Shown here: in pieces, positions 51,066 to 64,000 of the stretch
Layout: every line of letters begins with the position of its first letter
How positions within the stretch are numbered: the stretch's first letter is position 1
DNA from: Candidatus Competibacteraceae bacterium
Lineage (GTDB): Bacteria > Pseudomonadota > Gammaproteobacteria > Competibacterales > Competibacteraceae
Direction of reading: 5' to 3'
Assembly (NCBI GenBank): GCA_016790045.1
Contig: JAEUPW010000169.1
Span: 1-64,000, forward strand
DNA length: 64,000 nt
Translations under genes and position numbers: made by a program
Notes under the pieces: generated by a model
What the model was told of the DNA's origin: nothing
Databases searched by the model: none
The model's input: the letters and a program-made list of their open reading frames with translations, nothing else

Positions 51066-53354
51066 ATGAAATCGTATCGCCGTTTATTTCTCGCTGTCGG
51101 GCTGCTCGCCGCCGCTTGCGGCGCGCGCGCCGCCGAATTCGTGGTTCAGGACATTCAGCTCGAGGGCTTGCAGCGCATCTCGGCCGGCACGGTGTTCAAC
51201 TATCTGCCGGTTCAAGTGGGGTCGACCGTCGCCGAGCGCGATTATCCCGAGATCATTCGAGCCTTGTTCAGGACCGGCTTTTTCGCCGACGTCAATCTGG
51301 AGCGCAAGGGCAACGTGCTGGTGGTGACCGTGACCGAGCGGCCGGCCATCGCCGAGGTCCGCTTGGTCGGCAACCGGGACATCAGCGCCGAGGATCTCAA
51401 GAAAGCCCTGACCGGCGTCGGGCTGGCCGAGGGCCGGGTGTTCGACCGCTCTTTGCTGGACAAGGTGGAACAGGAGCTGTTGCAGCTCTATTACAGCCGG
51501 GGCCGCTACGGCGTGCAGATCAAAAGTCAGGTGCAAGCGCTGGAGCGCAACCGGGTGGCGATCACCCTCGACATCGCGGAAGGCGCGGTGGCCAGCATCA
51601 GCCGGATCAACATCGTCGGCAACAAGGCGTTCAGCGAAAAGCAACTGCTCAAGCAACTGCAATCCTCCACCACCGGCTGGTTCTCGTTTTTCACCAAGGA
51701 CGATCAATATTCCAAGCAAAAGCTGGCGGCCGACATCGAAACCCTGCGCTCGTTTTATCTGGACCGGGGCTATCTCAAGTTCAACGTCGAATCCACCCAG
51801 GTCTCGATCACCCCGGACAAGCGGGACGTGTACGTCACGCTCAACATCACCGAAGGCGAACCCTACACCATCGACGAGGTGGCGCTGTCCGGACAGTTCG
51901 GCGTCGTGCCGGAACAAGACTTGCGCAAGCTGATCACGATCAAGCGGGGCGACACGTTTTCCAGGGCCCAGATGGCGGAAATCACCAAGAAAATGGGCGA
52001 GCGCCTGGGCGAGGAAGGCTACGCCTTCGCCAACGTCAACACCGTGCCGCGGCTGGACGACGAGAATAAAAAGGTCGCTTTGAATTTTGCGGTCGATCCG
52101 GGCCGGCGGGTGTACGTGCGCCGCATCAATTTCCAGGGCAACGCCAAAACCCAGGATGAGGTCTTGCGCCGGGAGTTGCGCCAAACCGAGGGCGGCTGGG
52201 TTTCGACCAAGGACCTGGACCGCTCCAAGACGCGCTTGCAGCGGCTGGATTATCTGGAAAGCGTCAACGTCGAAACGCCCGCCGTGGCCGGAACCAACGA
52301 TCAGGTGGACGTCAACTACACGGTGGTGGAACGGCCCTCCGGCAGCCTGATGTTCGGCGTGGGCTACGGCCAGGAATCGGGGGTATTGCTGAACCTCAAC
52401 GTGACCCAGAACAATTTTCTGGGCACCGGCAATCAGTTGGGCGTGAATTTCAACAACAGCGACATCGGCCAGAATTACAGCCTTTCGTTCAACAACCCCT
52501 ATTACACGCTGGACGGCGTCAGCCTCGGATTCCGCCTGTTCTATCGCGCCATCGACAGCTCCGAGCTGAACACCTCCAATTACACCCAGAATATCTACGG
52601 CGGCCAGATCAATTTTGGTTTCCCGCTCAACGAATACGACACCCTGAGGCTGAGCCCTGGCTACGAGCATATTTGGTTCGATACCCAGGAAGACACGGCC
52701 GCCGAAGTCAAAGATTTTTTGCAAAAAAACGGCGATTCTTACGACCAGTTCAAACTGGACGCCGGCTGGTCGCACGACACCCGGGACCGGGCCATTTTTC
52801 CGACCGGCGGCAGCCTCAATCAGATCACGGCCCAGATCGCCTTGCCGGGCAGCACGGCGGAATTCTATAAGCTGAGCTATCGGGGCGTGGTCTATATCCC
52901 GTTCAGCCGCTGGCTGACCGGTTCGCTCGGCGGCGAGATCGGCTATGGCGACGGTTACGGCAGCAGCGACGGCTTGCCGTTTTTCGAGAATTTTTATGCG
53001 GGCGGCCTGCGCTCGGTGCGGGGCTTCAAAGCGAATACCTTGGGCCCTCGCTACAGCAATGACGACCCTAGCGGCGGCGCGTTCAAAACGGTCGCCAGCA
53101 CGCAACTGATTTTTCCGGTCCCCTTTATGGAACAATCCGAAAACGTGCGGGTGGCCGCATTCTTGGACGCGGGCAACGTCTATAAAGATGTCGGGGCCTT
53201 CGACGCCGGCGACTTGCGCTTCTCGGCGGGCTTGTCCGGAACGTGGCTGTCGCCGTTTGGTCCCCTGGTGCTTAGCGTCGCCGCGCCGCTCAACGAGCAA
53301 GACGGCGACGACACCGAACTTTTCCAGTTTTCTTTCGGCGTCCCGCTCAATTAG
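51066..53354 (+). CDS. bamA: Outer-membrane protein assembly factor BamA
   Basis: A 762-residue Omp85 protein with a signal peptide (cleavage near ACGARA), five POTRA domains (to about residue 420) and a 16-strand barrel. The VRGF motif of loop 6 is present (GGLRSVRGFKANTLGPRY). With BamC (10217-11401) it forms the BAM complex. The last residues are FQFSFGVPLN: the beta-signal is recognisable but the usual terminal aromatic residue is absent. skp follows 63 bp downstream. Confidence 0.97.
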   Translation: MKSYRRLFLAVGLLAAACGARAAEFVVQDIQLEGLQRISAGTVFNYLPVQVGSTVAERDYPEIIRALFRTGFFADVNLERKGNVLVVTVTERPAIAEVRLVGNRDISAEDLKKALTGVGLAEGRVFDRSLLDKVEQELLQLYYSRGRYGVQIKSQVQALERNRVAITLDIAEGAVASISRINIVGNKAFSEKQLLKQLQSSTTGWFSFFTKDDQYSKQKLAADIETLRSFYLDRGYLKFNVESTQVSITPDKRDVYVTLNITEGEPYTIDEVALSGQFGVVPEQDLRKLITIKRGDTFSRAQMAEITKKMGERLGEEGYAFANVNTVPRLDDENKKVALNFAVDPGRRVYVRRINFQGNAKTQDEVLRRELRQTEGGWVSTKDLDRSKTRLQRLDYLESVNVETPAVAGTNDQVDVNYTVVERPSGSLMFGVGYGQESGVLLNLNVTQNNFLGTGNQLGVNFNNSDIGQNYSLSFNNPYYTLDGVSLGFRLFYRAIDSSELNTSNYTQNIYGGQINFGFPLNEYDTLRLSPGYEHIWFDTQEDTAAEVKDFLQKNGDSYDQFKLDAGWSHDTRDRAIFPTGGSLNQITAQIALPGSTAEFYKLSYRGVVYIPFSRWLTGSLGGEIGYGDGYGSSDGLPFFENFYAGGLRSVRGFKANTLGPRYSNDDPSGGAFKTVASTQLIFPVPFMEQSENVRVAAFLDAGNVYKDVGAFDAGDLRFSAGLSGTWLSPFGPLVLSVAAPLNEQDGDDTELFQFSFGVPLN

Positions 53355-53417
53355 CCGGGCGGGGAATCGGGTTTGTAGCGACTTGTTTGCAATCGTTTGC
53401 TGATGGAGGTATCGACT

Positions 53418-53924
53418 TTGAAGCTCTTGAAAACTGTGGTAGTCGCGGCGGCCTTGAGCCTGCCGTTTTCGCTGGCGCAAGCGGCCGAATTGAAGATCGG
53501 TTACGTCAGCGTCGCCGAAATCCTGAAAAGCGCGCCGCAAGCGGAAGCGGCCAGCAAGCGCCTGGAAAAAGAATTCGCGCCCCGGCAGCGGGGGTTGGTG
53601 GAAGCGCAGAAGAAGCTGCGCCAATCCGAGGAAAAATTATCCAAAGACGGCGCGGTCGTCGGCGAGGGCCAGCGTCGCAGCCTGGAAGGCGACATCCGCA
53701 ACCAGGCCAGGGAACTGAAGCGCACCAGCGATGAATTCCGCGAAGACTTCAACATGCGCCGCAACGAGGAGCTGGGCAAGTTTCAAAAGGAAGTGCTGGA
53801 AGTGATCAACGGGGTGGCCAAGGAAGAAGGCTTCGATCTGATCGTCAACGACGGGGCGACGCTGTATGTCAGCCCGCAGGTGGACGTCACCAAAAAGGTT
53901 CTCAGCCGCCTGACGTCCAAGTAA
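53418..53924 (+). CDS. skp: Periplasmic chaperone Skp (OmpH)
   Basis: A 168-residue periplasmic chaperone for unfolded outer-membrane proteins. A signal peptide ends near SLAQAAE; the mature part starts LKIGYVSVAEILKSAPQ, followed by the long helical arms (residues about 50-130) and a C-terminal strand. The start is taken as TTG at 53418 because GGAGG lies eight bases upstream; an ATG at 53403 overlaps that site and is less likely. The order bamA-skp-lpxD is conserved. Confidence 0.93.
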   Translation: MKLLKTVVVAAALSLPFSLAQAAELKIGYVSVAEILKSAPQAEAASKRLEKEFAPRQRGLVEAQKKLRQSEEKLSKDGAVVGEGQRRSLEGDIRNQARELKRTSDEFREDFNMRRNEELGKFQKEVLEVINGVAKEEGFDLIVNDGATLYVSPQVDVTKKVLSRLTSK

Positions 53925-53929
53925 GCCCG

Positions 53930-54961
53930 ATGGCCACGCTGGGCGAGATCGCCGCGGTATCCGACACACGGCTGCAAGGCTGTGACGCCGCGACGGTCGT
54001 CACCGGGGTGGCGCCGCTCAACCGGGCCGAGCCCGGACAACTCAGCTTTCTGACCCACGCCCGCTACCGCCAGTATTTGGCGGACACGCGCGCCTCGGCC
54101 GTGATTTTGTCGGCCGAGGACGCCGCGGATTGCCCCGCGCCGGCGCTGGTGGCCGACAATCCGCAGGTGGCCTACGCGCGGGCGGCGGCGCTGTTCGAGC
54201 CGGCGGTCCAGGCGGGGGCGGGCGTTCATCCCACGGCGTGGGTCAGCCCGGACGCCCGCATCGCTCCCGATGCCTGGATCGGGCCGCAATGCACGGTCGA
54301 GGCCGGCGCGGTGATCGGCGCCGGCGCGGTGATCGGACCGAACTGCGTGATCGGCGAACGCGCCGAAATCGGCGAACAAACCCGGCTGGTGGCTCAGGTG
54401 ACGGTCTGCCACCGGGTGATCCTGGGCCGGCGGGTGCTGGTGCATCCGGGCGCGGTGATCGGCAGCGACGGGTTCGGGCTGGCGCTGGATCGGGGAGGGC
54501 GCTGGCTCAAGATCGCGCAACTGGGCGGCGTGCGCGTCGGCGATGATGTCGAGATCGGCGCCAACACCACCATCGACCGCGGGGCCTTGGAAGATACCGT
54601 GATCGAGGACGGGGTGAAATTGGACAATCAGATCCAGATCGCCCACAACGTGCGCATCGGCGCTCACACCGCGCTGGCGGGTTGCGTGGGCATCGCCGGC
54701 AGCGTGCGGATCGGACGCCACTGCATGTTGGGCGGCGGGGTCGGCGTCGCCGGGCATCTGGAAATCGCCGACCGAGTACAGATTACCGGCATGTCGCTCG
54801 TCACCCAATCCATCTCCGAGCCCGGCGCTTATTCCTCGGGTCTGGCGGTGGAGCCGAACCGGACCTGGAACAAGATCAGCGCGCGCCTGCGCCGGTTGGA
54901 CGAGTTGTTTCGCCGCGTGGCGGCCTTGGAAAAAACAAGCAACCAAGACGGCTCCACTTGA
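53930..54961 (+). CDS. lpxD: UDP-3-O-(3-hydroxyacyl)glucosamine N-acyltransferase
   Basis: A 343-residue left-handed beta-helix enzyme for the third step of lipid A synthesis. The N-terminal uridine-binding domain (LGEIAAVSDTRLQG) is followed by hexapeptide repeats from about residue 100, with GDDVEIGANTTIDRGAL and the catalytic-histidine segment DNQIQIAHNVRIG. Length matches E. coli LpxD (341). It lies 5 bp after skp and 12 bp before fabZ. Confidence 0.97.
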   Translation: MATLGEIAAVSDTRLQGCDAATVVTGVAPLNRAEPGQLSFLTHARYRQYLADTRASAVILSAEDAADCPAPALVADNPQVAYARAAALFEPAVQAGAGVHPTAWVSPDARIAPDAWIGPQCTVEAGAVIGAGAVIGPNCVIGERAEIGEQTRLVAQVTVCHRVILGRRVLVHPGAVIGSDGFGLALDRGGRWLKIAQLGGVRVGDDVEIGANTTIDRGALEDTVIEDGVKLDNQIQIAHNVRIGAHTALAGCVGIAGSVRIGRHCMLGGGVGVAGHLEIADRVQITGMSLVTQSISEPGAYSSGLAVEPNRTWNKISARLRRLDELFRRVAALEKTSNQDGST

Positions 54962-54973
54962 GAGGGTTAAGCC

Positions 54974-55423
54974 TTGGAAACGATGGAAATCAAGGAAATA
55001 CTGGAGTATCTGCCCCACCGGTATCCCTTTTTGTTGATCGATCGCGTTTTGGCGGTCACGCCCGGCCAATCTTTGACCGGCCTCAAGAATGTCACGTTCA
55101 ACGAGCCTTATTTTTTGGGGCACTTCCCGCAGCGCCCGATCATGCCCGGCGTGCTGATTCTGGAGGCGCTGGCTCAGGCGACCGGCGTTTTGGCTTTCAA
55201 GAGCGAAGACGGCCTGCCCGACCATCGTTCCATGTATTACTTGGTGGGCGTGGATAACGCCCGTTTCAAGCGGCCGGTCGAACCGGGCGACCAACTGATT
55301 CTGGAAGTCCGCCTAGACCGGATCAAGCGCGGGATCGGCAAGTTCGTCTGCGAGGCCAAGGTGGACGGCCAACTGGCGGCGGCGGCCGAGGTGATGTGCG
55401 CCCGGCGCGAGATCGAACCGTGA
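54974..55423 (+). CDS. fabZ: 3-hydroxyacyl-ACP dehydratase FabZ
   Basis: A 149-residue hot-dog fold dehydratase in fatty-acid elongation, competing with LpxA/LpxD for 3-hydroxyacyl-ACP. [14 protein letters not shown] and the catalytic [20 protein letters not shown] hold the His and Glu. A TTG at 54974 is preceded by GAGAGGG; the ATG at 54983 is the alternative start. Its stop overlaps the lpxA start by four bases (GTGA). Confidence 0.97.
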
Positions 55424-56193
55424 TCGACCCGCGCGCCGTGGTGGACCCGTCCGCCCGATTGGCGCCGGATGTGACGGTAGGGCCGTTTTCGGTGATCGGG
55501 GCGGAGGTGGAAATCGGCGCCGGCACCTGGATCGGGCCGCATGTCGTGATCCAAGGCCCGACCCGGATCGGCCGCGACAACCGGATTTTCCAGTTCGCCT
55601 CGCTGGGGGAAATGCCCCAGGACAAGAAATACGGCGGCGAGCCGACCCGGCTGGAAATCGGCGACCGCAACACCGTCCGCGAATTCGTGACCATCAATCG
55701 CGGCACCGTCCAGGATGCGGGCTGCACGCGGCTGGGCGACGACAACTGGATCATGGCCTACGTCCACATCGCCCACGACTGCTGGGTGGGCGATCGCACC
55801 ATTTTCGCCAACGGCGCGTCTCTGGCCGGCCATGTGCGGGTCGAGGACGACGTCGGGCTCGGGGGTTTCGCGCTGGTCTACCAGTTCACCCGCCTGGGGA
55901 TGCACAGCTTTTGCGGGTTCGCCTGCGGGGTGCACCGGGATGTGCCGCCGTACGTGACCGTGGCTGGCTACCGCGCCGAGCCGTACGGCATCAACGCCGA
56001 AGGCTTGCGCCGCCGGGGGTTTTCCGATGAAGAAATCAAAGCGATCCGCCGGGCTTACAAAGTGATCTACCGCACCAATCTCCGGCTGGAGGAAGCGGTG
56101 GAGCAGGTGCGGGACATGACGGCGGAATGGCCGCGCCTGCGGATCCTGGCCGACTTTCTGGCGTCGCCGTCCCGCAACGGCATCGTGCGTTGA
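55420..56193 (+). CDS. lpxA: UDP-N-acetylglucosamine acyltransferase
   Basis: A 257-residue beta-helix enzyme for the first step of lipid A synthesis. The start GTG overlaps the fabZ stop and gives the expected N-terminus [20 protein letters not shown]. Hexapeptide repeats run to about residue 185; [14 protein letters not shown] contains the catalytic histidine. The C-terminal helical region begins [18 protein letters not shown]. Length is close to E. coli LpxA (262). Confidence 0.97.
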
Positions 56194-56200
56194 CCGCCTC

Positions 56201-57349
56201 ATGCACATCGCGCTCGTCGCCGGCGAGCTGTCGGGCGATCTGTTGGGCAGCGGCCTGATCGCGGCCTTGACAGAGCGTTATCCCCAGGCCCGATTCAGCG
56301 GGGTGGGCGGTCCCGCCATGATCGCGCGAGGGCTGCGATCGCGGGTGCCGCTGGAGCGCTTGGCGGTGATGGGCCTGGTGGAAGTCTTGCGCCACTTGCC
56401 CGAGCTGATCGCCATCCGCCGCCAGCTTTACCGGGATTTCATCGCCGACCCGCCCCAGGTCTTCATCGGCATCGACTCGCCGGATTTCAATCTGGGCCTG
56501 GAGCGCCGGCTGCGGGTCCGGGGCATCCCCACCGTCCATTACGTCAGCCCGTCGGTGTGGGCGTGGCGGCCGTGGCGGGTGCGCAAGATCGCCCGCTCCA
56601 TCGACCTGATGCTGACCTTGTTGCCCTTCGAAGCGCGGTTTTACCGGCAGCGCGGGGTCGCGGTCCGCCATGTCGGCCATCCGCTGGCCGACGAGATTCC
56701 CGAGCGCAGCGACGCGGCGGCGGCGCGGCGGGCGCTGGGGCTCGATCTGGCGGCGGACGCGCGCCTCGTCGCGCTGTTGCCCGGAAGCCGGATGGGCGAA
56801 ATCGACCGGATCGGGCCTCTGTTGCTGGAAACCGCCGTCTGGCTGCACGCGAGGCGCCCCGAGTTGCGGTTTGTGGTTCCGGCGGCGACCGCGCGCCTGC
56901 ACGAGGCGCTGGCGAGCTTGCAAGCCGAGCGCGCGCCGCATTTGCCGTTGACCTTGGTGCGGGAACGGTCGCGCGAGGCGATGGCCGCCGCCGATGTGGT
57001 GCTGCTCGCCTCCGGCACCGCGACGCTGGAAGCGATGCTGCTCAAGCGGCCGATGGTAGCGGCTTACCGGGTCGCGCCGGCGACGGCGTGGCTCGCCCGG
57101 CGCTTGGTGAAAATTCCCCATTTCACCCTGCCGAATCTATTGGCCGGACGGAGCGTGATCCCGGAATTTTTCCAGGAGGCGGCGACGGTGGCGAACCTGG
57201 GACCGGCGGTGTTGCACTGGTTGGACAACGCGCCGGCGCGAGCGGAATTGGAGGCCACCTTTGTCGGGCTGCACGCCGAACTGCGCCGCGACGCCAGCCA
57301 GAAGGCGGCCGAGGCCGTCGCCGAGTTGCTGGAACCGAAACGCGGTTAA
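56201..57349 (+). CDS. lpxB: Lipid-A-disaccharide synthase
   Basis: A 382-residue GT19 glycosyltransferase joining UDP-diacylglucosamine and lipid X. GELSGDLLGSGLI at the N-terminus, DSPDFNLGLERRLR, YVSPSVWAWRPWRVRKI and LLPGSRMGEIDR are the family signatures. In enterics rnhB and dnaE follow; here the run ends and a minus-strand kinase gene converges on it after 76 bp. Confidence 0.97.
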   Translation: MHIALVAGELSGDLLGSGLIAALTERYPQARFSGVGGPAMIARGLRSRVPLERLAVMGLVEVLRHLPELIAIRRQLYRDFIADPPQVFIGIDSPDFNLGLERRLRVRGIPTVHYVSPSVWAWRPWRVRKIARSIDLMLTLLPFEARFYRQRGVAVRHVGHPLADEIPERSDAAAARRALGLDLAADARLVALLPGSRMGEIDRIGPLLLETAVWLHARRPELRFVVPAATARLHEALASLQAERAPHLPLTLVRERSREAMAAADVVLLASGTATLEAMLLKRPMVAAYRVAPATAWLARRLVKIPHFTLPNLLAGRSVIPEFFQEAATVANLGPAVLHWLDNAPARAELEATFVGLHAELRRDASQKAAEAVAELLEPKRG

Positions 57350-57425: not shown

Positions 57426-60155
57426 TCAGCGAGGGAGCGCGCCGCGGTTGGCGGGCGACCAGCGGTCGCGCCGGAGCACCGGTCGAGCGCCGCAGCCGTC
57501 GGCCCTGCCGCACTGGCCGGTCAGACCGCCAAGCGCCTGATTGGCGCTATCCAGGCCGCGCTGTATTTCGGTCCCGACCGAGGCGCTGGCGCGCCCGACC
57601 CAATTGCCAAAATTTTCGGCCTGACGGCGGAGATCGGGTGCGGCGGTTGCGCGTTCCACGCGCGCCGAACGCTTCGAGATGATCGTGTGGGTGGTTTGGG
57701 GATTGGGCGAGGCGGCCGACGAAACCGGCGGAACGGTTCGGCTCGGAGCGGTCGCCGGCGCGGGGTTGGGACGGCTGACCAGTTCGATGGGCGGCGCGGG
57801 CCGGGAGCGGCTAACCAGTTCTATCGGTGCCTGGGCGGGAGGCGCCGCCTTGACCGCGCCGTTGATGTTGCTGACCAGATCGATGGGCGGCAGCGGCGCG
57901 AGGCGGCGCACGGGCGAGACCGTCTGGTCCGAAGACGGGCGCGCCGCCGCGAGCTTCGGCGCAACCCGCTCGCGAACGGGCGGGGAAGCGATTTTTGATG
58001 CGGGCCGTTCGCGGGCGACCGCAGGAGCCGGTTTGGCGGGCTGTGGCGCGGGGGCGGCGGGCTTGGCGGCGCGGGCGGTCAAGCGCGCGCTGCCCGGTTG
58101 AACCGTCGCCGGTTTCGGGGCCGGTTTCGCGATCGAGACGGTCCTGGCCGGAACGGGTGCCGGGGAGAATCGGGCGGGTTCGGGCCGCGCAGGCGCTGGC
58201 GCTCTTGAACTCGACGCGCTCGTTTCGGGTTTGACGGCGAGAGTCTTGGCGACGGGCGCGGCGGTTCCGGAAGGCGGAGGATTGGCGTCCGCACCACCGG
58301 CTTCAGGCTTGGCGGGCGCGGCTTTAACGGTCTTGGCCGAATCCCCGATGAGCGCTTTTTTGGAGATCGCGGGCGGGGCGGAAGCCTCGGCCTTGCTAGC
58401 CTCGATTCGCTTGGGCGGCTCGCCGGTTTTTGACGGGGCGGCGAATCTCGGCGGTCGGGCGGGCGTTAGCCTGGACGCTCGCGCGGGCGCGGCCGGTGGA
58501 GCTTTTGCCGGAGCCGGAGCCGGGGGGTCGGTTTCAAACCCGGAGCCGGCGATTGGCGCGCTTTGTTCGGTCGGTGGGGCGTGTTCGACTCCTGTTCCAC
58601 CATCGGGTTCCGCCTCGGCCGCAGCGGTCGTCGGCGCGGGTTCCTGCCCCGCGCGCTCGCCGGCGGTCGCGGCAGTCGAATCTAAGGCCTCTGGCGGCGT
58701 GACCGGTTCGGGTGCGTTGCGCTCTGGGGTCGCGGTCGCGACGCTTTCGGAAGCCGTTTCGGTTTCGGAAGAGTCCGGAGATTTCGGCGGTTCGGGCCGA
58801 GCGGGCGCGGTTGACGCCGTGTCAAAAGCGGGCGATGACGGGGTGGGCGGGGCAGGTGGTACGATCACCAAAGGCTGCGGTTCCGGTGCGGGAGTCGAAG
58901 GCGATGCGACGGCCGGACGATCGCTCGAAACCGCAGATGAGGAAACGGCCGGAGCGGTGTTCGCGGGTTCTGAGGCTTCCTGCATCATGACCGGTCGGAC
59001 GGCCACGGCCCACGCGATGGCCGCCGCCGCCGCCGAAAAAACGAGCAGGCCGAGGACCCGGGCGGATCGAGGCCGGCGAATCGAGGATCCCGCGCGCCGG
59101 GGATGGCGGTTTGGCGGGCTATCGGGCGGCGAGGTCCACTCGTCCGGAATGACGAGCGGCGGCGGCAGATGCGGCTGATCGATCCGCGCTTCGCGCAGAA
59201 CCGCGCGGATGGCCGCACCGGAGGCGGGACGGTCGGCGGGGTCGCGCGCCAACAGCCGATCCAGCAGATCGATCAGCGGCGGCGCGACGCCGTGTTGAAC
59301 CCGTTCGGGCCGCGCCGGCACGGTCCAAAACTCGATGGCGCGCCGCACGCTTTCCCGTTCCTCCGGATTCAAGCCTTCCGATAAAGTGGATTGTCGGCCC
59401 ACGCCTTCCTGGCCGTGCAGGGTGAGCAACTGGCCGAGCCGGCGCTGGGCGGCGGTGGCGGGCGCTTCGGTCAACAAAGTGAACAGCAACAGGCCCAGCG
59501 CGTAATAGTCGGCGCGAAAATCGACCGCGTATTCGCAGCCGCGCGCGCTCCGGCGGGCCGGCAGCAACTGCTCGGGCGCCATGGTGGCGGGCGTGCCGAT
59601 AAAGGAACGGGTGCTGTCGCCGTTTTCGCGCTTGAGCGAACCGAAATCCGCCAGCTTCAGCAGCGATCCCTGAGCGCCGACCAGAATGTTGCTCAATTTG
59701 AGATCGCGATAGACGAAGCCGGCTTGATGGATGACCTCCAAACCGGTCAGAATTTGTTCGGCCCAATCCAGAATCTGGGCGAGATCGGGCGGCGGCGCGC
59801 CGGTCTGCCGCCGTTGCGCCAACCACTGGCCGAGGTTGCATTGCAGCCGTTCCAGCACCAGCACCGGCTGGCCGTCCAGTTGACCGTGATCGAGCAAGGC
59901 GACGATGTGCCGGGATTGCGCGGGCGTCAAACCGGCCAGAAAATCGATTTCCCGCTCCAGGTGGGCGCGCCAGTGACCCCGAAGGCTATTGTCCGCCTGA
60001 GACATGGCCTCGGCGTTGACGAATTTCAAAGCGACCGCCCGCCCGGCGGCATCGGCGGCGGCCCAGACCTGGCCGTAACTGCCAGCGCCCGTGGACAGGA
60101 CGGAGCCGAGCCGGTATTCGCGACCTTCAAGCACGATCCGTTCGCCGCTTTGCAT
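57426..60155 (-). CDS. Membrane-anchored Ser/Thr protein kinase with long Pro/Ala-rich tail
   Basis: A 909-residue protein. The Hanks-type kinase domain spans about residues 10-325: glycine loop GAGSYGQV (23-30), ATP-binding K44 (VALKF), catalytic loop YRDLKLSN (149-156, Tyr for the usual His), D170-F-G and APE (193-195). A basic linker leads to one membrane span (367-386). The remaining 520 residues are low-complexity, rich in Pro, Ala, Ser and Thr, with three PPI(D/E)LVS-like units near 57777-57905 and a short helical C-terminus. With the kinase inside, the tail would be outside. It is divergent from the 60255 and SEDS genes. No PASTA domains are seen; substrates are unknown. Confidence 0.88.
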   Translation of the reverse strand: MQSGERIVLEGREYRLGSVLSTGAGSYGQVWAAADAAGRAVALKFVNAEAMSQADNSLRGHWRAHLEREIDFLAGLTPAQSRHIVALLDHGQLDGQPVLVLERLQCNLGQWLAQRRQTGAPPPDLAQILDWAEQILTGLEVIHQAGFVYRDLKLSNILVGAQGSLLKLADFGSLKRENGDSTRSFIGTPATMAPEQLLPARRSARGCEYAVDFRADYYALGLLLFTLLTEAPATAAQRRLGQLLTLHGQEGVGRQSTLSEGLNPEERESVRRAIEFWTVPARPERVQHGVAPPLIDLLDRLLARDPADRPASGAAIRAVLREARIDQPHLPPPLVIPDEWTSPPDSPPNRHPRRAGSSIRRPRSARVLGLLVFSAAAAAIAWAVAVRPVMMQEASEPANTAPAVSSSAVSSDRPAVASPSTPAPEPQPLVIVPPAPPTPSSPAFDTASTAPARPEPPKSPDSSETETASESVATATPERNAPEPVTPPEALDSTAATAGERAGQEPAPTTAAAEAEPDGGTGVEHAPPTEQSAPIAGSGFETDPPAPAPAKAPPAAPARASRLTPARPPRFAAPSKTGEPPKRIEASKAEASAPPAISKKALIGDSAKTVKAAPAKPEAGGADANPPPSGTAAPVAKTLAVKPETSASSSRAPAPARPEPARFSPAPVPARTVSIAKPAPKPATVQPGSARLTARAAKPAAPAPQPAKPAPAVARERPASKIASPPVRERVAPKLAAARPSSDQTVSPVRRLAPLPPIDLVSNINGAVKAAPPAQAPIELVSRSRPAPPIELVSRPNPAPATAPSRTVPPVSSAASPNPQTTHTIISKRSARVERATAAPDLRRQAENFGNWVGRASASVGTEIQRGLDSANQALGGLTGQCGRADGCGARPVLRRDRWSPANRGALPR

Positions 60156-60204
60156 GATGGGATCTCCGGGCTGCCGTCCTCGGGATAGGCTGTCTGAGTA
60201 AACT

Positions 60205-60230
60205 AATCGCGACCGCGAGGTCAGGCGATT
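60205..60230. promoter_or_regulatory. Hairpin/palindrome in the divergent kinase-SEDS promoter region
   Basis: AATCGC (60205-60210) pairs with GCGATT (60225-60230), and inside it GACC pairs with GGTC around a GCGA loop; a two-base bulge (AG) lies on the right side. As RNA the loop would be a GNRA tetraloop, as DNA the site could be an operator for both divergent genes. It lies 50 bp upstream of the kinase start and 24 bp before the ATG at 60255. Confidence 0.4.
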
Positions 60231-60254
60231 CCGCTATTGTGTCATTATTTGCCC

Positions 60255-61385
60255 ATGGAACCCATACCGAAGCTGAACCGCGAACGCGGGCGCCAGCCGA
60301 TCGGGCCGATGCTGCTCGCCCTGGCGATCGCCGCGAGCGCCGGATTGCTGCAACGGCAGTTGGCGGCGATCTACGCCGGCCCGGCCGCCGGGGTGAAGCC
60401 CGCGGAAACGGCCGCCCGCGCCCCCCGGCGCGAAGACGCCAAGCTGTTCGCGCGAGCGACGGAAGGCGGGTTGTTGCGGCTGCAAGCCGACGGGCGGATC
60501 GCCGTGGCTCCGGCCGACCTGCCGCTGCGCCACGCCTACGCGCGCGCCCATCCCGATTTGCTGACGCCGCGTTCGGAAGGGCCGGATTGGTTGGCCGGCC
60601 TCTGGGACGGCGAAATCCGCCGCCTGCATCAGGCCCTGCATTTCAGCGCAGCGGGCCGCTACGTGCGCCAGCAAGTCGAGGCGTTCAACGCCCGCCAACT
60701 GCTGGCCGCCATCCGCTGGCGTTCGGAGACCGGGCCGCCGGGCGCTTGGACCGCCGACTGGTCGGGAGCGCCCCTGACGCTCGCCGCCCCCCTGTCGCGG
60801 GATCAGCCGTTTTTGGACGAACCTTCCGGCGGCTGGCAACCGTGGCAATGGGTGGCGCGCTGGCCCGCGCTGGAAAACCGCCCGCCGGTCCGGTTTCGCA
60901 TGACGCCGCTACGGCCGGTCCCTGCCGGCGAGCGGCTGGAATTGCAGGTGATCGGGGATGCGCCGCAAGTGGAAGGCGCGACGGTGTTGGCCAGCGAGCC
61001 TCGGTGCCGCGAGAGCGCCTTCTGCGCGGAAGCGGAGGCGGTCGCCCACCGGTTGGTGGTGCAATGGCGCGAAGGCTCGACGGGGTTGACGGTGCGCTGC
61101 GCGCCGCTCGCGGCCAGCCGGATTCCCGAACTCTGGCGTCAGCAGGTGACGCAAATCCGCCGGGAGGGCGAACGGCTGTTGTGGCGGGAACCCGCGGGCG
61201 CGGGCGCGGGCGCTAGCGCGGCGCGCCCTCCATCGACCGAATCCAAGCCGGATCGCTTTCCCGCGTTCGGGCGAGCGCATGGGCTTCCGGAGGTGGGCCA
61301 TGATCGGGCGGCGGGAGCGAATCTGGAGGGCTCGCCCGCTCGTTTGGCGGCGTCGGTGGCTCACGCGCGCTGGAAACGGCGTTAG
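60255..61385 (+). CDS. Hypothetical single-span membrane protein beside SEDS gene
   Basis: A 376-residue protein not recognised. A basic N-terminus is followed by one hydrophobic segment (residues about 19-36), so most of the chain is probably periplasmic. It has a helical part near 100-160 (GEIRRLHQALHFSAAGRYV) and a beta-rich part near 190-300 with a CRESAFC pair of cysteines. The C-terminal 60 residues are low-complexity. No penicillin-binding motifs (SxxK, SxN, KTG) are visible, so it is not an obvious transpeptidase partner. No good ribosome site precedes the ATG; an in-frame TTG at 60237 is possible. The SEDS gene starts 12 bp after its stop. Confidence 0.7.
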   Translation: MEPIPKLNRERGRQPIGPMLLALAIAASAGLLQRQLAAIYAGPAAGVKPAETAARAPRREDAKLFARATEGGLLRLQADGRIAVAPADLPLRHAYARAHPDLLTPRSEGPDWLAGLWDGEIRRLHQALHFSAAGRYVRQQVEAFNARQLLAAIRWRSETGPPGAWTADWSGAPLTLAAPLSRDQPFLDEPSGGWQPWQWVARWPALENRPPVRFRMTPLRPVPAGERLELQVIGDAPQVEGATVLASEPRCRESAFCAEAEAVAHRLVVQWREGSTGLTVRCAPLAASRIPELWRQQVTQIRREGERLLWREPAGAGAGASAARPPSTESKPDRFPAFGRAHGLPEVGHDRAAGANLEGSPARLAASVAHARWKRR

Positions 61386-61397
61386 GGAGCGTCGGCC

Positions 61398-63776
61398 ATG
61401 ACGCGGTTTTCGGCTGCCGGCGCACTTTTTGGGCTATTGGGTTTGGCGCGTCGAAATGCGTGCCTGATGATCGGGTTACTGCCGTTGCTGGGGATGTTGT
61501 GGACGGGCTATCGCGCCCCGGATTGGCTGGAGCCGCGCCGCCTGACCGTGCGCTTGGAGGCGGGCGAGTCGCTGGTCCTGGGCCGCGAAGCGCTGTGGTC
61601 CCCGCAGGCCGACCGCGAACACGTTTTGTTGCGGCGGGACGAAAAGGGCGCCTGGCGGTTGAGCAATCTTGCCGCCGCCAAACAGGTGCTTTGGCAACCG
61701 CAAGCCGAGCGCGAAGCGCGCTCGGTCCGGCTGTGGATGCTGGCCGCCGGGATCGCGTTTTCGGTCGGGACCCAAAAGTTCGAGGTGCTGGAAGCGGGGG
61801 CCGGGCGACTGATCTTGCAAAGCGCCGGGGCGCGATGGGAATACGATGGTTTCGGCCTGCGCAAAGACGGCCGCCCGCTGCCGGAATGTCGGGCGGATTG
61901 GCGGGCTCGCCTGGCCCGGCTGGGAGAAGGGCGCGCGCCGCTGCTGTCCGCGCGTCGGCCGCTGCGCCTCGGCGGCGGCGTGTATTGCGCGGATCGCTTG
62001 GGCCTGGCCGCTGTTCCCGTGGATACCGCCATCGTCGAACCGACCGGGGCGGGTTTCGCGCTCGCTCCGGGCGCGGCCGGGCGCAGCGACGGCGTACCGG
62101 TGATCGCGGCGGCCGAAACGCCGGCGGCGCAATCGATCTGGGAGCAGTCCGTGCCTCTGGCCATCGGAGATCGGCTGATCGTCGGCCGCGTTCACTATCG
62201 GGTGACGCGAACCGCGCCGGCGCTGGAACTGGCGGTGTCGGCGCGCGCGCAGCGCCGGCTGGAAGGTCCGCCTCCCGCCGATGTCGCGAGCGTCAACGTG
62301 ACCTGGGCCCGATCGGAGTGGTGGTGGCCGCCCGATCCGTCTCCCGCTGCCGCGCGCGTGGGGTCGCTGGTGCTGGCGGTTGTGGCATTCGGCGCGATCT
62401 GGGCGCTGCTGGGGCGGAATCCGGGCTCGCGAACGGTGGTGCGCTGGGGCTGGAGCGCGCTGGCGGCGGTGTTGGCCGGCGTGTGCCTGGCGATGCAGCG
62501 CGACGTGTCGGCCGTTCCGGTGCTTTGGCCGTATGGGCTCGCCTGGCCGGCGCTGCTGCTGTGCATGAGCGCCGTGCGCTCGCCTTGGAGCCGCCGGTTG
62601 ATGGCGCTCCTGCTGCTGTTGCTGGGCGGCGGGTTGGTGGCGCTGTTGCAGTTGGGGGCGGGCAGCGATGAGACGGGCTGGCAGCGTTATGGCGGCAGCG
62701 CGGCGGCTTTGGCCGGCGCGTTCGGGTGGCTGGCCTGGGCCGCGCAAAACGCTTGGCGGGGCCTGCGCCCGCTCCGCTGGCCGGACGAGCGCTGGGTTTG
62801 GTGGAGTTTGCGGGTTTTGGGCGCTGGAGCGGTGGCGCTGCTGGCCATCCAGGTGCTGGCGGGCGATGAAGGGGGGTGGGCGGGATTTCAGCCTTTCGAG
62901 CTGACCAAGCTGGTGCTGGTGGCGGCGGCGGCTCACGCGCTCGCTTTGAGGAGCCGGGCGCAGCTCCACGGCTGGAGCCGCGATAGGGCGCTGCCGTGGC
63001 TGCGCTACCTCGGTCCGTCGGTCTTGCTTGCGGCGGTTTGCAGCTTCGCTTTATGGTTCCTGCACGATTTTTCCCCGCTTCTATTATTGTTGTGCTGGGC
63101 GCTGGCGCTGGTGTGGGCCTACGTTCGCGCCCACCCGTTGCCGCTTTGGCGCCGGATCGGCCGCGTGGCGGTCCTCGGGTCGGTGGCCGCGCTGGCGCTC
63201 GGCCTGAAAGGGCTTTACCGGCAGCCGGAGGCGATCCCCCTGGCGTTTCAGGCGGATCGGGTGCGCGCCTGGGCCGCGCCGGAGGACTACCCGCACGCCG
63301 GCTACCAGCTCCGGCGCGCGCTGGAAGGCATTCGGGCCGGCGGCTGGGGCGGGTCAATTTGGCGCGAGCCGGCCAACGGCCGGTCGATGGCGGTGCCCGT
63401 GGTGGAAAGCGATTTCGCTCCGGCCTTCTTTCTGAGCCGCTACGGCGGGTTGGCAGGTTTGTTGCTGGTGGCGTTTCAGGCGGCGTTTATCGGCTTGCTC
63501 GTGATCATTGCCGAGCGCGCGCGGCGCCGGCCGAGCCCCGACGGCGCCTGGCCGACGCTGCCGGGTCGATTTTGCTACTTTTTTCTGGCCGGAGGCGCGG
63601 CCTTGCTCGCGGCGCATTTTTGGGTGTCGTGGGGCACCAACCTGGGCTTTTTGCCGGTGATGGGCCAGCCGATGCCGCTGTTGTCCGCCGCCGGCAGCCA
63701 TTTGATATTGTTCGTGCTACCGATCGTGGCGCTGGCGATCGCGATCGAGGAAAACAATCATGACCACCCATTCTGA
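61398..63776 (+). CDS. SEDS-family (FtsW/RodA/SpoVE-like) protein with extra N-terminal extracytoplasmic domain
   Basis: A 792-residue membrane protein. The C-terminal half (from about residue 318) has about ten spans and SEDS motifs: GFQPFELTKLVLV, LHDFSPLLLL, AGYQLRRALEGIRAGGWGG, VPVVESDFAPAFFLSRYGG with the presumed catalytic D672, and LPVMGQPMPLLSAAGSH. SEDS proteins polymerise peptidoglycan from lipid II. Before it lies one span (about 20-38) and an extracytoplasmic region of about 280 residues. This region begins with an FHA-like pattern (GRE at 62-64, DREH at 72-75, WRLSNL) but lacks the usual NG. Normal FtsW/RodA are 370-410 residues. It overlaps the next gene by 17 bp. Confidence 0.85.
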   Translation: MTRFSAAGALFGLLGLARRNACLMIGLLPLLGMLWTGYRAPDWLEPRRLTVRLEAGESLVLGREALWSPQADREHVLLRRDEKGAWRLSNLAAAKQVLWQPQAEREARSVRLWMLAAGIAFSVGTQKFEVLEAGAGRLILQSAGARWEYDGFGLRKDGRPLPECRADWRARLARLGEGRAPLLSARRPLRLGGGVYCADRLGLAAVPVDTAIVEPTGAGFALAPGAAGRSDGVPVIAAAETPAAQSIWEQSVPLAIGDRLIVGRVHYRVTRTAPALELAVSARAQRRLEGPPPADVASVNVTWARSEWWWPPDPSPAAARVGSLVLAVVAFGAIWALLGRNPGSRTVVRWGWSALAAVLAGVCLAMQRDVSAVPVLWPYGLAWPALLLCMSAVRSPWSRRLMALLLLLLGGGLVALLQLGAGSDETGWQRYGGSAAALAGAFGWLAWAAQNAWRGLRPLRWPDERWVWWSLRVLGAGAVALLAIQVLAGDEGGWAGFQPFELTKLVLVAAAAHALALRSRAQLHGWSRDRALPWLRYLGPSVLLAAVCSFALWFLHDFSPLLLLLCWALALVWAYVRAHPLPLWRRIGRVAVLGSVAALALGLKGLYRQPEAIPLAFQADRVRAWAAPEDYPHAGYQLRRALEGIRAGGWGGSIWREPANGRSMAVPVVESDFAPAFFLSRYGGLAGLLLVAFQAAFIGLLVIIAERARRRPSPDGAWPTLPGRFCYFFLAGGAALLAAHFWVSWGTNLGFLPVMGQPMPLLSAAGSHLILFVLPIVALAIAIEENNHDHPF

Positions 63777-64000
63777 GACCTTGCTCGTGTCCGATTACGT
63801 GATCTGCGCGACCCTGCGCAAGGTGTCGGACGTGTTCAACGCCGCGCTGCTGTGGGAGCGGGTGCGCGGCGGCCAGGAAGGCGTTTTTCTGCTGGAGGCG
63901 CTCAAGCGCCACCCCCGGCTTCCCTTCGGCCGCCAGCGCCAGGAAACCTGTTACAGCCACGTCGTCGTCCGCATTCCCGAAAAGGATTATCTCCGCGACG
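63760..64000 (+). CDS. Unidentified protein, C-terminus outside window
   Basis: The ATG at 63760 overlaps the end of the SEDS gene by 17 bp, with GAGG nine bases upstream, so translation is probably coupled. Eighty residues are visible, starting MTTHSETLLVSDYVICATLR, with mixed charge and no signal peptide or membrane span. No domain is recognised. Its position makes it a likely member of the kinase-SEDS cluster. Confidence 0.65.
   Translation, partial: MTTHSETLLVSDYVICATLRKVSDVFNAALLWERVRGGQEGVFLLEALKRHPRLPFGRQRQETCYSHVVVRIPEKDYLRD

Follow-up and report, generated by a model that had tools for sequence, protein, structure and literature searches.

The question raised by this locus is why, in a gammaproteobacterium, a gene for a membrane-anchored Hanks-type Ser/Thr kinase should lie beside a gene for a SEDS cell-wall polymerase. 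The locus closes a window of 64,000 nucleotides (nt), that is, bases 1-64000 of contig C61 (JAEUPW010000169.1) of a Candidatus Competibacteraceae bacterium, belonging to a group of glycogen-storing wastewater bacteria, whose genome assembly comprises 2.76 Mb and is 76% complete; the relatives with which it was compared include Candidatus Competibacter and Contendobacter, of the same family. The kinase gene (57426-60155, minus strand) diverges from three tightly packed, co-directional genes, located at 60255-61385, 61398-63776 and from 63760 onward; the second, encoding an enlarged SEDS protein, starts just after the end of the first and overlaps the third, here named g3, by 17 nt. This layout, proposed by an earlier sequence-only reading of the window, was confirmed by the Pfam matches of the kinase (PF00069) and of the SEDS protein (PF01098), and by the gene coordinates. 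Our main new result concerns the first of the three genes, the partner gene, whose nature that reading had missed: as judged from its sequence and from those of its relatives, it is what remains of a class B penicillin-binding protein (bPBP) after the loss of the transpeptidase.

The product of the partner gene (60255-61385, plus strand; P0002, 376 aa) found no match in Pfam or NCBIfam, and nothing meaningful was obtained for P0004. The gene found at this position in relatives encodes a protein of ~1060-1080 aa with a C-terminal penicillin-binding transpeptidase domain (PF00905, E ~1e-12), and the SxxK, SxN and KTG motifs of a bPBP were found in five main loci of Competibacteraceae, in two paralogues and in 14 genomes outside the family. 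The profile of the full-length form identified, as best match in the PDB, the Thermus thermophilus PBP2 of the RodA-PBP2 complex (E 7e-8), and a structural model of it, of moderate confidence (pLDDT 69), matched PBP3/FtsI by Foldseek (E 2.6e-12). The window protein aligns to positions 2-51 and 259-595 of this profile of 1034 positions: the transpeptidase region, with its three motifs, is absent, and what remains is the anchor in the membrane with a portion of the periplasmic region. The single anchor (60303-60380) is kept in all the forms of the partner, and it is followed by a periplasmic core of ~93 residues (60426-60704; REDAxLF...APADL...GRYVRQQxxxFN), which is retained in every truncated form, holds nearly all the invariant columns of the partner alignment (A3) and can still be recognised in the bPBPs of Oxalobacteraceae. 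In the shortest truncated partners, what is left is one transmembrane (TM) helix and ~100-130 periplasmic residues.

Across Competibacteraceae, the transpeptidase of the main locus occurs in three states: intact, with SxxK, SLN and KTG, in five genomes; catalytically dead in six, all of which have lost both the lysine of SxxK and the asparagine of SxN; and deleted in 13, including that of the window. Outside the family, all of the 14 genomes tested carry a single, fully intact copy with the SxxK, SxN and KTG motifs, and the transpeptidase is the best conserved part of these proteins; the loss is, thus, the derived state. To count the events we used a tree of SEDS and g3, rooted on an intact paralogue, and considered the loss as irreversible: the maximum likelihood tree required six events, and 5 or 6 were obtained in 98% of the bootstraps. 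Two losses are especially clear, one in G013, placed inside an otherwise intact group (support 99/99), and one in the genus g9, sister to an intact genome (support 98/97). Unordered parsimony on the presence or absence of the transpeptidase needs only three changes, but at the price of regaining a deleted domain. Counted as irreversible, the loss of the transpeptidase thus occurred 5-6 times independently. Two contigs bearing the Competibacteraceae cluster (L076 and L087) are titled Phycisphaerales and Synechococcaceae, and are apparently mislabelled metagenome-assembled genomes.

Two other explanations of the truncation were considered and rejected. A sequencing error was discarded because the truncation is common to whole genera, and relocation of the transpeptidase because a second copy of this bPBP was found in none of the transpeptidase-less genomes. 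Other, canonical transpeptidases are kept in 39 genomes out of 39, and the window genome has only three of them, apparently FtsI, PBP2 and a class A penicillin-binding protein; these enzymes could supply the cross-links in the genomes that lost the transpeptidase of the cluster.

The SEDS protein (61398-63776, plus strand; P0003, 792 aa), instead, is predicted to be an active glycan polymerase. It matches PF01098 with an E of 2.7e-20, and its AlphaFold model (pLDDT 83.7, pTM 0.81) has the SEDS fold, with FtsW (in FtsWIQLB) and RodA-PBP2 as best Foldseek matches (prob 1.00). The catalytic Asp672 (codon 63411-63413) aligns with the Asp of extracytoplasmic loop 4 of RodA/FtsW and is invariant in alignments A1 and A4; E501 and K504 of the QPxExxK motif are also invariant, and the whole set formed by the Q/E/K residues, D557, R621 and D672 aligns with the RodA and FtsW of the same genome and is invariant or nearly so. 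That this might be the only SEDS gene, hence an ordinary RodA or FtsW, was rejected: as the sequence-only reading had suggested to verify, a separate rodA, adjoining the PBP2 gene, was found on contig C142, and a separate ftsW, in the dcw cluster, on C167. The window protein is a weak third match in the genome after these two, and its scores against the RodA and FtsW equivalog models (63 and 59 bits, with cut-offs of ~337) indicate that it is an orthologue of neither. What enlarges it is an additional N-terminal β region (residues 43-305, 61524-62312, delimited by DSSP on the model), preceded by one TM helix and followed by three, after which come the ten canonical helices. For this region an FHA-like fold was suspected, and weak structural matches to FHA domains were obtained (Foldseek prob 0.57-0.84; hhalign prob 13%).

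The kinase (909 aa, PF00069 E 3e-34) has a cytoplasmic kinase domain (residues ~10-320), one TM helix (~370-390) and a periplasmic tail rich in Pro and Ala. The Lys, Asp, DFG and APE motifs are all present in its sequence; among the 17 complete orthologues, YRDLKxSN and APE are found in every one, VAxK is lacking in a single case and each has DFG or DLG, and the Oxalobacteraceae kinases carry YLDLKPxN in place of YRD. PASTA repeats are absent, as Pfam detects the kinase domain alone and the score against NF033483 is 76.5 bits with a cut-off of 450. The sequence-only reading had also taken a promoter hairpin shared by the divergent genes as an argument for a single system. The hairpin GACC-gcga-GGTC does exist at 60210-60223, but it is not conserved in the alignment of 13 intergenic regions, and this argument had to be abandoned. 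Conserved, instead, is the promoter-like block that contains it (60197-60223, minus strand; CAGTAAACT...GGTCA(AG)), a locus-specific pattern with a single site in the window, which on the minus strand reads TTGACC/CTGACC, 16/17 nt, TTTACT and is directed at the kinase.

The third gene, g3, starts at 63760 and continues beyond the window to C61:65502 (plus strand), encoding a soluble protein of 580 aa with a C-terminal FHA-like stretch (FGRG...LSRRH). Of the proteins that the sequence-only reading had proposed to look for to the right of 64000, a PP2C phosphatase is absent from the window's own cluster and present in the clusters of Oxalobacteraceae. The g3 protein had no match in Pfam, a PDB sequence search with its profile returned chance matches only, and hhalign aligned the SRRH to FHA domains with a prob of 10%; GR and SRRH are kept in Competibacteraceae, and the His is lost in Oxalobacteraceae. 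In the genome G024 (L200, G024:C295, 2755-2900) kinase and g3 are adjacent, with the conserved divergent promoter still in place, and a short stretch resembling the first codons of the partner, apparently a scar, points to an in-place deletion of partner plus SEDS. Moreover, in G020 the SEDS gene is broken, with kinase and g3 intact next to it, and g3 was seen alone in G034. From G024 and G020, kinase and g3 look like a pair able to outlive the SEDS-partner pair.

The neighbourhood is conserved across Competibacteraceae, in Oxalobacteraceae and in two genera of Oceanospirillaceae; kinase, SEDS and g3 stay together in the first two families, a conservation that the sequence-only reading had proposed to test. 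In Oxalobacteraceae (Massilia, Duganella, Rugamonas, Telluria) the order is kinase, SEDS, g3, with a kinase-SEDS overlap of 4 nt in many genomes, and the cluster, of ~25 kb, adds an intact bPBP, a PP2C phosphatase, an FHA protein (PF00498) and a second kinase; in Massilia agrisoli (G404) and Duganella sacchari (G406) the gene order places kinase, PP2C, FHA, SEDS and bPBP within ~25 kb. The clusters of these two species (L186/L187 and L188/L189) also contain a kinase-like gene with an FGE-sulfatase domain and a zinc-ribbon protein. The dedicated, kinase-linked wall-synthesis system that had been supposed from gene position is, then, supported by conserved clustering, by the 4-nt overlaps, by the PP2C, FHA and bPBP genes of Oxalobacteraceae and by the separate FtsW and RodA. 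On a broader scale, g3 was found in 31 genomes out of 40 in the order and in 3 of 369 sampled from the class, all three of Competibacteraceae, and the long SEDS in 3 of 398 sampled from the phylum, one of them from another class; from this distribution, the SEDS-bPBP pairing is probably old but rare. In the genome from the other class (L204, G780:C32), a bPBP-like gene lies directly 5' of the long SEDS and no kinase was detected nearby.

Further copies were observed. A divergent paralogous set bPBP-SEDS-g3 (L058, G017:C26, 5560-13453) has an ECF-sigma-like gene between bPBP and SEDS, caspase-like protease genes nearby and no adjacent kinase. In Contendobacter (L063/L064/L124), a second, more distant long-SEDS paralogue, 29-31% identical, has zinc-ribbon Hanks kinases as neighbours but neither bPBP nor g3, and is possibly another kinase-SEDS pairing. 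As for the surroundings in the window, the bamA-skp-lpxD-fabZ-lpxA-lpxB operon (51066-57349) directly precedes the cluster, and lpxA/lpxB on the far side of the kinase are common at least to two loci of the same genus (L037 and L038). Downstream of g3, in convergent orientation, there are genes for an HtrA-like protease with TPRs, a TPR protein, a coiled-coil protein and a glycine-zipper protein, which also adjoin the cluster in several relatives.

Taken as a system, we consider it fairly probable that these genes encode a third SEDS-bPBP peptidoglycan synthase, alongside RodA-PBP2 and FtsW-FtsI, attached to a signalling pair formed by a Hanks kinase and an FHA-like protein and operating, in the lineage of the window, with a transpeptidase-less activating partner. 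The kinase would presumably phosphorylate the system, either itself, the FHA-like g3 or the SEDS complex, and g3 would pass the phosphorylation state to the SEDS polymerase, whose obligate partner would be, or descend from, a large bPBP. In the window's lineage and in about five others, in which the transpeptidase is dead or deleted, the anchor and the short periplasmic core would hold and activate the polymerase, as the pedestal regions of bPBPs do for RodA/FtsW. Strand polymerisation would then be uncoupled from its cognate cross-linker, and the strands could be cross-linked by PBP2, FtsI or class A penicillin-binding proteins, or left uncross-linked. The sequences themselves show the identities of the genes, their conservation, the loss of the transpeptidase, the preserved SEDS active site, the selection and the retention of the partner together with SEDS; activation by the remnant, phosphorylation, and when and where such a machine works are what we infer from the genes described above. 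The activating step draws support from the literature: the PBP2 pedestal activates RodA (PMC6207328), and bPBP catalysis can be partly dispensable where the protein is needed, as for the Clostridioides difficile SpoVD S311A and a catalytic mutant of Bacillus subtilis PBP2b, the dead SpoVD still partly supporting septation with its SEDS partner SpoVE (PMC12713402).

Several observations weigh against this proposal. In Escherichia coli with PBP2 blocked, the uncross-linked SEDS product is toxic (PMC6207328). The FHA identity of g3 and of the N-terminal region of the SEDS protein is weakly supported, and the latter is placed in the periplasm both by TM parity in the model, with the catalytic loop as the starting point of the count, and by positive-inside residues, where a cytoplasmic kinase would be out of its reach; its weak FHA likeness would therefore not reflect the reading of phosphothreonine produced by that kinase. 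Moreover, the evolution of SEDS is somewhat accelerated in the absence of the transpeptidase, as relaxed constraint predicts: the pairwise ratio of nonsynonymous to synonymous substitutions (dN/dS, Nei-Gojobori) is 0.20-0.36 in transpeptidase-less pairs and 0.14-0.20 in intact pairs. Finally, SEDS and partner were deleted in place in G024, SEDS is broken in G020 and both are absent beside g3 in G034; the locus is thus dispensable and could be decaying. This last possibility, in which the loss of the transpeptidase was the first step and the SEDS protein and the truncated partner linger without making wall any longer, also agrees with the patchy presence of the system, and we regard it as unlikely for the following reasons. 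The dN/dS of SEDS, of g3 and of the truncated partners (0.27-0.28) is well below 1, and even the dead transpeptidase domain is still constrained (0.25-0.31); from these values, SEDS, stump and dead domain are all still selected, with mild relaxation. The catalytic Asp is invariant, and open frames persist after the loss in whole genera, in five genomes of the window's genus and in five dead-domain genomes of another. In favour of the proposed synthase, the partner is present in 24 of the 26 genomes with the SEDS gene and in none of the 13 without it (Fisher p 1.3e-8, 39 genomes, a value that overstates independence, the genomes being related); of the two exceptions, one has SEDS at a contig edge and the other a broken SEDS.

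It could also be supposed that the SEDS protein is no longer a polymerase, and acts as a membrane scaffold or a sensor for the kinase/g3 pair. The periplasmic β domains and the additional TM helices of its model would suit such a role, kinase and g3 can outlive it, and the conserved EE that follows the catalytic Asp in RodA/FtsW is replaced by NR/SR in the window-type proteins. On the other hand, the active-site columns common to RodA/FtsW, listed above, have been preserved almost without change, and we find this explanation quite improbable. That the clustered genes are mere neighbours and the kinase/g3 pair regulates something else, as the persistence of the pair without SEDS in G024 and G020 and the position of the Competibacteraceae kinase, divergent and outside the SEDS operon, might suggest, is very hard to reconcile with a kinase-SEDS-g3 set kept in two distant families despite different surrounding gene orders, and with the 4-nt overlaps in Oxalobacteraceae.

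The proposed kinase-linked synthase can be compared with known systems. In Actinobacteria, the pstP-rodA-pbpA-pknA-pknB-fhaB/fhaA locus clusters SEDS, bPBP, Hanks kinase, PP2C and FHA proteins (PMC6554272), and the whole gene set is present in the Oxalobacteraceae clusters; the likeness is one of gene content, and differs in that the kinase here is without PASTA repeats, SEDS has ~400 extra N-terminal residues, the bPBP, of ~1080 aa, has extra domains and repeatedly lost its transpeptidase, and the synthase is additional to RodA-PBP2. The dead SpoVD S311A and PBP2b share with our case a structural need for the bPBP with catalysis (partly) dispensable; those, however, are laboratory mutations (PMC12713402), whereas here the active site or the domain was lost naturally, more than once, and the loss became fixed in whole genera. 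With RodA-PBP2 and FtsW-FtsI the system shares the SEDS fold and active site and, in the full-length form, a class B partner; unlike them, it is an additional paralogue in genomes already having both, it is linked to a kinase and, in the window, its partner has no transpeptidase. In the non-subscription literature, to which our search was limited, we found no paper describing this cluster, or a bPBP naturally devoid of its transpeptidase whose SEDS partner is retained.

The coupling of SEDS and bPBP is believed to keep toxic, uncross-linked strands from forming, and the membrane-proximal region of the bPBP is regarded as the means by which it activates the SEDS enzyme. The repeated natural loss of the transpeptidase, with SEDS, anchor and core kept, provides evidence from evolution for an activator role that can exist by itself, and points to the minimal piece able to activate a SEDS enzyme. 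Whether the window's lineage really offers a natural SEDS polymerase controlled by a Ser/Thr kinase and served by a bPBP-derived, transpeptidase-less activator, with an uncoupling that evolved 5-6 times and a remnant (one TM helix and ~93-130 periplasmic residues) that would be the minimal SEDS-activating module, seems to us evenly balanced. Such lineages may provide a natural test of whether the making of wall strands and their cross-linking have to be coupled in a single complex. Moreover, Pseudomonadota too possess a kinase/phosphatase/FHA set in one cluster with a SEDS-bPBP pair, an arrangement known from Actinobacteria; among them are Massilia and Duganella, which can be cultured and in which it would be testable.

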